The notes under the pieces: generated by a model | Told to the model about the DNA's origin: nothing | Database searches by the model: none | The model's input: the letters and a program-made list of their open reading frames with translations, nothing else | Source: Minisyncoccota bacterium | GTDB lineage: Bacteria > Patescibacteriota > Minisyncoccia > Phycocordibacterales > UBA9973 | Reading direction: 5' to 3' | Assembly: GCA_031291825.1 (NCBI GenBank) | Contig: JARLIG010000002.1 | Span: 1-32,996, forward strand | Length of the DNA: 32,996 nucleotides | Program-made: the position numbers and the translations under genes | In this document: in pieces, positions 2,627-25,435 of the stretch | Layout of the letters: every line of letters begins with the position of its first letter | Numbering within the stretch: the first letter of the stretch is position 1

Positions 2627-2657
2627 GTGGATAAACCTCCAGACGTTGGACGTCTGG
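2627..2657 (+). repeat. 31-nt interspersed repeat copy 1 with 8-bp palindrome CCAGACGT-TGG-ACGTCTGG
   Basis: GTGGATAAACCTCCAGACGTTGGACGTCTGG; exact reverse complement at 20737-20767. Confidence 0.9.
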
Positions 2658-10193: not shown

Positions 10194-10218
10194 AACGAAA
10201 ACTAACACAAACAAAAAA

Positions 10219-10249
10219 ACACTCCGATTTATGTCGGAGTGTTTTTTTG
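10219..10249 (+). terminator. Rho-independent terminator (probably bidirectional)
   Basis: ACACTCCGA-TTTATG-TCGGAGTGT followed by TTTTTTT (A-run on the 5' side). Confidence 0.85.
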
Positions 10250-10255
10250 TTTGTG

Positions 10256-10327
10256 TGCCTAGGGGGTGAATCGCACACCCGACCTGTCCCTCTTCAGGGG
10301 AACGCTCTACTACTGAGCTACCTAGGC
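10256..10327 (-). tRNA. tRNA-Phe (GAA)
   Basis: Acceptor GCCTAGG/CCTAGGC, anticodon loop CTGAAGA, T-arm GGGTG-TGCGATT-CACCC. Confidence 0.93.
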
Positions 10328-20736: not shown

Positions 20737-20767
20737 CCAGACGTTGGACGTCTGGAGGTTTATCCAC
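20737..20767 (-). repeat. 31-nt interspersed repeat copy 2 (inverted relative to 2627-2657)
   Basis: CCAGACGTTGGACGTCTGGAGGTTTATCCAC, exact reverse complement of copy 1; ends 2 nt from the glycerate kinase stop codon. Confidence 0.9.
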
Positions 20768-20769
20768 AC

Positions 20770-22119
20770 TTAGTTTTTAGTCAGTAAAATCATCAAATCG
20801 GAAACATTGGCACCAGTGGGGCCGGTCATGATTATGTCCCCTGTTTTTTGGAAGAAATCATAGGAATCAAAACGAGTGGCGTAATCGTTCACGTCCAAAC
20901 CGAACTTAACTATTTTTTCCATCGTACTTTTATCCACAATCGCTCCAGCCGCATCGCTATTATCCATCCCGTCAGAACCAAATGAAATGAAAACAGAATC
21001 GTCTTTTACAAGTTTCATTTTAACTGCTTCAAGTCCCATATGTAAATTTCTGCCACCCTTGCCAGCATTTTTAGGAACAACAACGCGTGGTTCACCTGCA
21101 GCTAAGGTCACAGACGTTGGACGTCCGCCCTGCTGACGTACAACGTCTCCAGGCGCAGAGACGTTGTACACCTGCTTTAGCAGATGTCCAACGTCTGAAA
21201 CGTTTCCAAAAATTTTCTCAAGCGCCTTATCCACTTCATCATAAAGTTCAGTTGAAACAATATTAACTTTCAATCCAAGTTCTTCAGACTTTTTTTCCAT
21301 CGCCTCCACAGCAGTTTTATTGGAAACTAAAACAAAATTGTGAACCTTTTCAAAATATTTATCTTCTTTAGGCGTCTCAATTAAATCAAATTCCCCTAAA
21401 TTATTTTCTGCGATAATTTTCTCCACATCAGACACTGTCGTATCGTCTTTATAAGTTGCCCCAGAGGCAACGTTTTTAAATATATTCCCTGGCACGTCGG
21501 AAAAGATAAGCCCAACCACAGTCGCTGGATAAGCAATTTTTGCCAGTCCTCCGCCTTTCAAAAGAGACAAGTGTTTTCTGATCGTATTCATCTCCGAAAT
21601 TGTGCCCCCAGTTTTTAAAAATTCATCGTAAAGCTTGGCGCCTTGTATATATTCACTTTCTGGATAACAAAGAAGAGCTGAGCCACCCCCAGAAACAAGC
21701 ACAATGATTAAATCTTCCTCGGTAGAATCCTTAATTATTTCATATATTTTTTTCCCAGCCACCACATTTGCATCAGTGGCCCTCGGATGTGTGCCTGCAA
21801 AAGTTTCAATATATTTGCATTCAACTTTTTCCAAGCCGATAACTGCGCCAGAAGTAATCTTGTCTCCTAAAATTTTCTCCAAAGCTAAAGCAGCCTGGCA
21901 AGATGACTTTCCAAAACCAACAACCTTTATTTTTTTAAATTTTGCTAAATCAAAATCTTCTCCTTGAATAGAAAGTTTTTCTCCGCTAAGAACGACCAAA
22001 GATGCGATAACATTTTCCGTCTTTATAGCGTCCAACCCAGACTCTATTATTTCTAACGCTATTTTACGGTTTAGAGTTATAGCCAAGGTATCCCAATTTT
22101 TAATCCAGTGTCCATCCAT
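20770..22119 (-). CDS. Glycerate kinase (DUF4147/MOFRL type, putative glycerate 2-kinase)
   Basis: VVGFGKSSCQAALALEKIL, VSGGGSALLCYP, MNTIRKHLSLLKGGGLAKIAYPA, GKGGRNLHMGLEA, SFGSDGMDNSDAAGA, DSYDFFQKTGDIIMTGPTGANVSDL. Confidence 0.93.
   Translation of the reverse strand: MDGHWIKNWDTLAITLNRKIALEIIESGLDAIKTENVIASLVVLSGEKLSIQGEDFDLAKFKKIKVVGFGKSSCQAALALEKILGDKITSGAVIGLEKVECKYIETFAGTHPRATDANVVAGKKIYEIIKDSTEEDLIIVLVSGGGSALLCYPESEYIQGAKLYDEFLKTGGTISEMNTIRKHLSLLKGGGLAKIAYPATVVGLIFSDVPGNIFKNVASGATYKDDTTVSDVEKIIAENNLGEFDLIETPKEDKYFEKVHNFVLVSNKTAVEAMEKKSEELGLKVNIVSTELYDEVDKALEKIFGNVSDVGHLLKQVYNVSAPGDVVRQQGGRPTSVTLAAGEPRVVVPKNAGKGGRNLHMGLEAVKMKLVKDDSVFISFGSDGMDNSDAAGAIVDKSTMEKIVKFGLDVNDYATRFDSYDFFQKTGDIIMTGPTGANVSDLMILLTKN
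21111..21197 (-). repeat. 87-nt nested palindromic element, in frame inside glycerate kinase
   Basis: CAGACGTTGGAC...GTCCAACGTCTG outer arms (12 bp), GTACAACGTCTC...GAGACGTTGTAC inner arms (12 bp); 29 codons; outer arm shares CAGACGTTGGACGTC with the intergenic repeats. Confidence 0.85.
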
Positions 22120-23608: not shown

Positions 23609-25435
23609 TTACTGACTGTCAGTACGCATCATTTTTAGAAAAACGTCTTGGGAGATATTGACTCTACCACGTTCTTTCATTTTCTTTTTACCTTTTTTCT
23701 GCTTCTCGCGTAGTTTCATTTTTCGCGTAATATCGCCGCCATACATATGCTGGGTAACATCTTTTTTCATTCCAGACTTAGTGCGAGAAGAAATAATACG
23801 TCCTAAAGCTTGACCTTGAATTTTCAAAGTAAACATCTGACGAGGCAATAAGCTGTCTAATTTTATCACGGCTTTTTCGGCTTCAACCTCAGCTCGTTTT
23901 TTAGAAATGACCCTAGAGAATGCTGGCACTACTTCATCGGCCACGAGCAAATCCAGCCTTGTGACAAATGCTTCGCGCATCTCACCGATTTCATAAGAAA
24001 TAGAAGCATAGCCAGAAGAAGTGCTTTTTAATTCATCAAAGAAATTACGCATTAACTCACGCAAGGGCATTTTGACGGAAATTGTAGAACGATTATCACC
24101 AAAATTTTCAGTATCACCCACTTCCCCTTCGTGGTCAAACAATAGTTGCATAATATTGCCGACATATTGAACTGGAGTAATAATTTTCAAATTCACCCAA
24201 GGTTCAAAAACATTCTCAATCAGTCCATCGTCTGGAAAAAAATAAGGAGAGTAAACTTTTATTTTTTTACCAGCTTGCCCTGAACCAACTGAAGGGTTCT
24301 TAAGAATCACTTCATAAGTAATAGACGGTGTCGTGATAACCAGCTCTAAATTAAATTCTCGCTTCAATCTTTCGGTAATAATCTCCAAGTGAAGCATTCC
24401 CAAAAATCCGCAGCGAAATCCTCTACCGAGCGAACCGCTGGATTCTTCTTCATAAGAAAAAGCTGAATCGGAAAGTTTTAGTTTTCCCAAAGAAAGTTTC
24501 AACTCCGCAAAGTCGTCTGCGTTTTCTGGAAAAACAGAAGCCCAAACGACTGGCAACGGTTGCATGTATCCTTCGAAGGCTGGCAGTGGATTCTTGAACA
24601 TCGTAATCGTGTCACCGACAGAAGCGATACCAGGCTTTTTTATTCCAGTCACAATATAGCCAGTGTCTCCGGGAGAAAGAAAATCTCTAGGAGTTTCTTC
24701 CGGAGAAAAAGTGCCAACTTCGAGTGCAATAAATTTTTCACCAGAAACGGCAAACAAAAGATTGTCACCTTTGGCTACCTTACCATCAAAAACTCGCACA
24801 AAAACTATCACTCCACGATGATTGGAATATTTAAAATCAAAAACTAAGGCGCGCAAATCACTTTCTCCTTTATAGGTTTCCGTCGGAGCTGGAATGCGTT
24901 TGATAACTTCTTGTAAAAGACTTTCGACTCCCTCACCAGTTCGCCCAGAAACCAAAATTATTTCTTCTTGTTTACAATTTAAAAGCTTTACGACTTCTTC
25001 TTGAATTTCTGAGACTCTAGCTAAAGGAGAATCAATCTTAGAAAGCACTGGAATAATTTTTAGGCCTCCTGCGCGCGCCATAGCTAAGGTCGTCAGCGTT
25101 TGCGCCTGTACGCCTTGGGTTGAATCCACTAGTAAGATGGAACCCTCTACAGCCTTTAAGGCGCGCGAAACTTCATAGGAAAAGTCGATATGTCCTGGGG
25201 TGTCAATTAAGTTTAAAATAAAATTCTGACCTTCATACTTGTATTCCATACGAACGGGCTGCATCTTAATCGTGATTCCCCGCTCACGTTCAATATCCAT
25301 CGAGTCCAACACTTGGTCACGCATCTTACGAGTCTCAATCGTGTGAGTAATTTCAAGCATTCTATCTGCCAAAGTACTTTTACCGTGGTCAATGTGGGCT
25401 ATGATTGAAAAATTTCTAATGTGTTTTAAATCCAT
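23609..25435 (-). CDS. lepA: Elongation factor 4 (LepA)
   Basis: NFSIIAHIDHGKSTLADRML, DSMDIERERGITIK, DTPGHIDFSYEVSR, C-terminal YGGDITRKMKLREKQKKGKKKMK. Confidence 0.97.
   Translation of the reverse strand: MDLKHIRNFSIIAHIDHGKSTLADRMLEITHTIETRKMRDQVLDSMDIERERGITIKMQPVRMEYKYEGQNFILNLIDTPGHIDFSYEVSRALKAVEGSILLVDSTQGVQAQTLTTLAMARAGGLKIIPVLSKIDSPLARVSEIQEEVVKLLNCKQEEIILVSGRTGEGVESLLQEVIKRIPAPTETYKGESDLRALVFDFKYSNHRGVIVFVRVFDGKVAKGDNLLFAVSGEKFIALEVGTFSPEETPRDFLSPGDTGYIVTGIKKPGIASVGDTITMFKNPLPAFEGYMQPLPVVWASVFPENADDFAELKLSLGKLKLSDSAFSYEEESSGSLGRGFRCGFLGMLHLEIITERLKREFNLELVITTPSITYEVILKNPSVGSGQAGKKIKVYSPYFFPDDGLIENVFEPWVNLKIITPVQYVGNIMQLLFDHEGEVGDTENFGDNRSTISVKMPLRELMRNFFDELKSTSSGYASISYEIGEMREAFVTRLDLLVADEVVPAFSRVISKKRAEVEAEKAVIKLDSLLPRQMFTLKIQGQALGRIISSRTKSGMKKDVTQHMYGGDITRKMKLREKQKKGKKKMKERGRVNISQDVFLKMMRTDSQ

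Follow-up and report, generated by a model that had tools for sequence, protein, structure and literature searches.

The palindromic insert in the kinase gene

The window analysed in this work, a stretch of 32,996 nucleotides, comes from an uncultured bacterium of the Patescibacteria whose genome (698 kb in 17 contigs, here G000) groups with Candidatus Nomurabacteria; all the genomes considered are metagenome assemblies. The minus strand at 20770-22119 encodes a 449-residue protein of the glycerate kinase family (DUF4147 and MOFRL), assigned by Pfam and by its solved-structure relatives, of which 1X3L and 2B8N are the nearest both by sequence and by fold. At 21111-21197 this gene contains an 87-nt compound palindrome. 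The perfect 12-bp outer arms (21111-21122 and 21186-21197) and the equally perfect 12-bp inner arms (21138-21149 and 21158-21169) which a first-pass annotation had described are both present. That annotation took the segment for a single element, and the nested palindrome does exist, but the 87 nt are made of two tandem REPIN-like hairpins, GACGTTGGAC...GTACAACGTC at 21113-21147 and GACGTTGTAC...GTCCAACGTC at 21160-21195 (both given on the plus strand), which can also pair with each other and each of which is a copy of a repeat spread through the genome, not something unique. The fold predicted for the mRNA strand has an energy of -55.2 kcal/mol. Perfect GC-containing 12-bp inverted-repeat seeds occur six times in the window and not once in any of 20 shuffles. 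A strong perfect inverted repeat of the terminator type was also seen beside a tRNA gene at 10205-10256, and an Rfam scan of the window returned tRNAs only.

The palindromic segment is open in frame, as had been claimed, and translates as SDVGHLLKQVYNVSAPGDVVRQQGGRPTS, residues 308-336 of the minus-strand reading frame. Its 29 codons run from 21198 down to 21112, so the DNA palindrome is offset by one base relative to the codons. The family motifs on both sides are intact, with DUF4147 at residues 21-241 and MOFRL at 337-441 (Pfam). While 29 codons are indeed encoded by the insert, the net gain over orthologues is 25 residues: the distance between the fixed motifs that flank it is exactly 22 residues in most of about 105 homologues and 47 in the kinase of the window, with values of 21-33 in some homologues, mostly distant ones. 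In the AlphaFold model built on 50 homologues (mean pLDDT 89.6), which was used in place of a single-sequence model with a mean pLDDT of 41.8, the sole stretch with pLDDT below 50 is residues 308-331, within the insert and between a helix and a strand. This fits an insert in a tolerated surface loop that is predicted to be disordered, and the kinase probably bears it at little or no cost.

The arm of the palindrome is shared with intergenic repeats, recurring at 2641 and 20739, and eight near-matches to it lie in the window against 0.79 expected. One intergenic single copy, CAGACGTTGGACGTCTG with the conserved tag GAGGTTTATCCAC, is situated directly downstream of the kinase gene (20738-20767, plus strand). 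In the other (2627-2656, plus strand) the tag is inversely oriented (GTGGATAAACCTCCAGACGTTGGACGTCTG); the earlier position for this repeat, 2627, is a start that takes in the conserved tag GTGGATAA. The tag, TTATCCAC (20760-20767 and 2627-2634), resembles the DnaA-box consensus.

A repeat family in the genome and recurrent inserts in the same loops

The first-pass annotation had proposed a search of the host genome for further copies, and many were found. The family has the consensus GACGTTG(G/T)AC...GT(C/A)CAACGTC, and its decamer GACGTTGKAC occurs 89 times in the 698 kb, compared with a single occurrence of the reversed control; they form 31 strict paired hairpins. The copies, examined in the stretches around them, are found in some 50 places; at least two (C4:42045 and C12:85497) look like chance decamers, and we therefore speak of about 48. 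As some of them lie at or near contig ends (C3:114, C3:15890, C4:63 and C17:211354), the assembly was probably broken at these repeats, so that the number of copies counted is a minimum. The paired stems covary among copies, with 26 double-change cells against 10.4 in shuffled data and none of 500 shuffles as high. At C11:7172 and C12:73755 one element is nested within another copy, which is how mobile elements would be expected to behave. In one subtype the tag GAGGKTTATCCAC lies on one side; the tag TTATCCAC was counted 18 times in 8.4 kb around elements and 11 times in 137 kb elsewhere, a 27-fold enrichment beside elements, and in genic copies it is also translated (LSTD, VDNP).

Most copies in this genome are extragenic and 11 of the roughly 48 are in genes. 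ORF mapping and NCBIfam show these 11 to be in frame and assign them to ten genes, of which nine can be recognised as housekeeping genes: AtpD, AtpG, GuaA, PurH (with two copies), PurD, MnmA, MurE, NifS and the glycerate kinase. The tenth encodes an FtsQ-like protein, named from its sequence without a family match. Gaps appear at the inserts when the proteins are aligned to sequences of solved structure, and the net addition relative to orthologues is about 9-25 residues.

Is the segment perhaps a native functional part of the kinase that is palindromic by chance? The open frame and the intact motifs on both sides would agree with this, but the 29 residues are absent from most kinase orthologues, four other species have unrelated palindromes instead and the segment is predicted to be disordered. 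The orthologue comparison thus refutes this explanation, and we give it practically no weight. The earlier suggestion that an in-frame palindromic element has become a segment of a protein is, in turn, supported by the empty orthologues, by the genome-wide repeat and by the other in-frame copies in conserved genes. Neither of the outcomes that the annotation had named as refuting it was observed: the 29 residues are missing from orthologues, and further copies are plentiful.

Kinase inserts of at least eight residues were found at the same spot in five orthologues from Nomurabacteria, all five palindromic and unrelated in sequence; the least pronounced is that of locus L103, which consists of two short palindromes in tandem. 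On a kinase tree calculated without the insert columns the insert label needs five changes and 0% of bootstrap trees allow one, although the strongly supported branches alone force only two. The same pattern was observed in TopA, where two species with 79% identical proteins have unrelated elements at one and the same residue, GACGTT in one species and AAAGACGG in the other, and in MurE, where unrelated palindromes occupy the same place in different species. For PurH, GuaA and NifS, the inserts found in different genomes belong to the same family and their positions coincide or nearly so; shared ancestry is possible there. The lepA gene of the window (elongation factor 4; 23609-25435, minus strand) has no inserts, whereas other Nomurabacteria orthologues have palindromic inserts after residues 66, 188 and 394 and at other sites. 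The site after residue 66, in the G domain, is filled in 16 of 27 orthologues by highly variable inserts and there are about four further sites; 13 of 32 LepA inserts are palindromic beyond p=0.05 relative to windows of the same gene, and the rest are not.

The strict GACGTT hairpin was found in two of 384 genomes drawn across the phylum and the GACGTT hairpin in nine of 149 relatives, the host genome included in both cases; a search of viral contigs gave no match to the strict hairpin. In a modest sample, coding DNA mainly from Nomurabacteria (0.61 Mb) contained 17 strong coding palindromes, compared with five in that of other Patescibacteria (0.48 Mb). Among the sequences compared, L102 (JAMPXW010000004.1) is labelled Burkholderiales and groups within Nomurabacteria, which points to a mislabelled or contaminated assembly.

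RAYT genes and the origin of the palindromes

What could move these palindromes? The host genome has a single Y1_Tnp (Y1/RAYT-like) gene, at C12:73076-73738 and coding for 221 residues, with one element directly upstream and another directly downstream. Its Pfam Y1_Tnp match (26.4 bits) is above the 23-bit cut-off and the HUH motif is present as NPNHFH; the sole NCBIfam match is to REP_Tyr_transpos, at 30 bits and below the curated cut-off of 80. Of 80 relatives, 57 have RAYT homologues. A first strict screen of RAYT flanks (arms of at least 11) gave 10/32; with a lower threshold, equal for controls, a palindrome was found within 70 bp upstream of 25 of 33 RAYT homologues and of 10 of 410 control genes. 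Matching palindromes, that is both flanks sharing an 8-mer, were present at 13 of the 33 and at none of the 410. The RAYT-flank palindromes also match 25 sites in the loci of other species, compared with 0 for the reversed control; among these sites are the L103 kinase insert and several L113 elements, of which one lies in LepA. RAYTs with a common palindrome are more alike (0.66 vs 0.33, p=1e-6). The enrichment at RAYT flanks and the matches at sites of other species lead us to regard the palindromes as substrates of RAYTs, for which the evidence is strong though circumstantial. Several genomes with GACGTT elements, such as G047, have RAYTs, but the full GACGTTGGAC hairpin was found beside a RAYT in the host genome alone.

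We consider it likely that the 87-nt element is a tandem pair of miniature mobile elements of the REP/REPIN type that belong to a RAYT system, inserted in frame in a loop of the kinase and translated as a disordered surface loop; both the mobility and the translation are deduced from sequence. According to this model, the RAYT would recognise the folded single-stranded palindrome, cut beside it and then copy or insert it elsewhere. Most insertions into genes would be purged, and what survives would be insertions in exposed loops that, by their length and frame, leave the gene open. Such purging would let unrelated families converge, in different species, on the same loops of the kinase, TopA and MurE. 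The best reading of the whole is a lineage rich in RAYT systems that have time and again added palindromes to the same exposed loops.

It may also be that the palindromes are MITE-like non-autonomous elements moved by another recombinase or by replication slippage, with the RAYT genes merely further targets of insertion. This is rather unlikely, but two observations speak for it: in several genomes no RAYT is flanked by exactly the family found in genes (AAAGACGG in G003, GACGTT in G047), and no transposase is known for intragenic CGTC REPs, including Rickettsia RPE-4 and RPE-6 (PMC3733652). Insertion targets alone would not account for the tight, two-sided matching palindromes at 13/33 RAYT genes against 0/410 controls, for the way in which palindrome likeness co-varies with RAYT relatedness, or for the fact that the single RAYT of the host genome is flanked by the element.

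The flanks of the copies raise a different question. No target-site rule could be derived from them, and the outer flanks of copies in relatives (L241-L254 and L032-L041) are complementary at positions d3-d6 in 56/84 cases against 0.26 expected, while these bases, 3-6 outside the conserved core, vary in sequence from copy to copy. This suggests either palindromic targets or growth of the stem into the flank. The latter is what would be seen if the palindromes were made locally by hairpin-templated (template-switch) replication copying without transposition, and some inserts, among them a perfect 46-bp palindrome in G003, do look freshly made. However, a local origin cannot account for one sequence found dozens of times at unrelated places in a genome, nor for the presence of the G003 palindrome in six genes, and one copy was found inserted inside another; we therefore disfavour this origin and think it very improbable. 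Still harder to credit is an accumulation through competence of DNA-uptake signal sequences of the Neisseria/Haemophilus type. The repeats are short, frequent, partly intragenic and often in inverted pairs, which would fit, but they are inserted segments missing from orthologues and not substitutions in existing sequence, their number is about 50 and not about 1000, and they are linked to a transposase gene. We also considered integron attC sites, since GTTGGAC fits GTTRRRY, and rejected them: no integron integrase was found in the genome, the sole match being below the cut-off and of a kind that appears in all 14 control genomes as well.

Known systems and the palindromes within genes

The elements resemble the described REP/REPIN-RAYT systems, which likewise have short palindromes, inverted doublets able to form hairpins, many copies and lineage-specific sequence (PMC3116915, PMC3733652, PMC8266576), as well as a RAYT gene flanked by its own palindrome. 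There are differences: the flanks here have no conserved GTAG, the tetranucleotide (GTAG or GTGG-like) that stands next to the hairpin and defines described REPs, one subtype having the TTATCCAC tag instead, and the host phylum is not covered in the papers cited. Described REPs are mainly extragenic, whereas the genic share here is 6/6 for the AAAGACGG family of G003 (six places), 7/10 for the GACGTT copies of G047 and 11/~48 for the host genome. IS200/IS605 elements also have a Y1 HUH transposase bounded by palindromes; the elements here, in contrast, are short and without a gene, with a single RAYT locus in the host genome. CGTC-tagged REPs are defined by an unpaired CGTC tag and a stem starting with AT (PMC3733652), while CGTC lies here within the paired arms.

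The annotation that preceded this work had compared the insert to the palindromic elements (RPEs) of Rickettsia. The analogy holds for the way it works but not as membership; the host does not belong to the Rickettsiales. In-frame palindromes in conserved genes and different elements at the same orthologue site are common to our case and to RPE and Wolbachia WPE (PMC2229807, PMC3767692); the loops there are solvent-exposed, and here AlphaFold predicts a disordered loop. The units here are 39-57 nt, compared with a stated length of 100-150 nt for RPEs; the hosts are unrelated, and a candidate transposase with matching palindromes is found here, with none known for RPE. Similar too are the intragenic GTAG/CGTC REPs of Opitutus terrae, R. 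conorii and Xanthomonas recB, in which REPs or their dimers code for 20-30 residues in housekeeping genes, recB also providing an example of different REPs at a shared site (PMC3733652). They differ from the present elements, which recur as unrelated palindromes in the same loop of several proteins and match a RAYT flank for at least one insert (that of the L103 kinase).

Genic REPs and RAYT-REP units are thus on record, as is the occupation of one site by different REPs (PMC3733652, PMC3116915, PMC8266576, PMC2229807, PMC3767692), and a 2025 REP survey dealt with intergenic regions only (PMC12306157). In the collection of papers searched, nothing relevant was found on palindromes in Nomurabacteria, Parcubacteria and Patescibacteria, which is no proof of absence. 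The novelty lies in the lineage and the scale, in the connection between coding palindromes and a transposase, and in the convergence on the same loops. The coding palindromes of Rickettsia have been known for more than 20 years and pose two questions, namely by what agent they move and whether the different elements seen at a single site point to hotspots or to one ancient diverged insert (PMC3767692). With unrelated palindromes in the same loops, mostly empty orthologues and matches to transposase genes, both questions become testable in a different phylum. Many annotated proteins of this lineage would also carry segments of mobile DNA, which matters for phylogenetics, structure prediction and the annotation of reduced genomes.

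Could the palindromes even have adapted to life within genes? The typical GACGTT unit of relatives measures 39 nt (13 codons), and 12 of 14 in-gene copies there encode DVGRPxxGRPTS or a close variant. One frame is used by 20 of the 25 clear in-gene GACGTT copies (p=2e-6); this preference may result from selection after insertion or from a target rule. As a tentative idea, RAYT-linked palindromes in Candidatus Nomurabacteria might have become a stop-free 39-nt unit with one preferred frame (DVGRPxxGRPTS) that spreads through the loops of housekeeping enzymes. If so, coding palindromes linked to RAYTs would be a standing supply of loop variation in proteins. The minor frame (TLDxRxxDVQR) is seen in NifS of L086, L250 and L035, where a GACGTT element lies at the same site, perhaps by shared ancestry or by a repeated hit.
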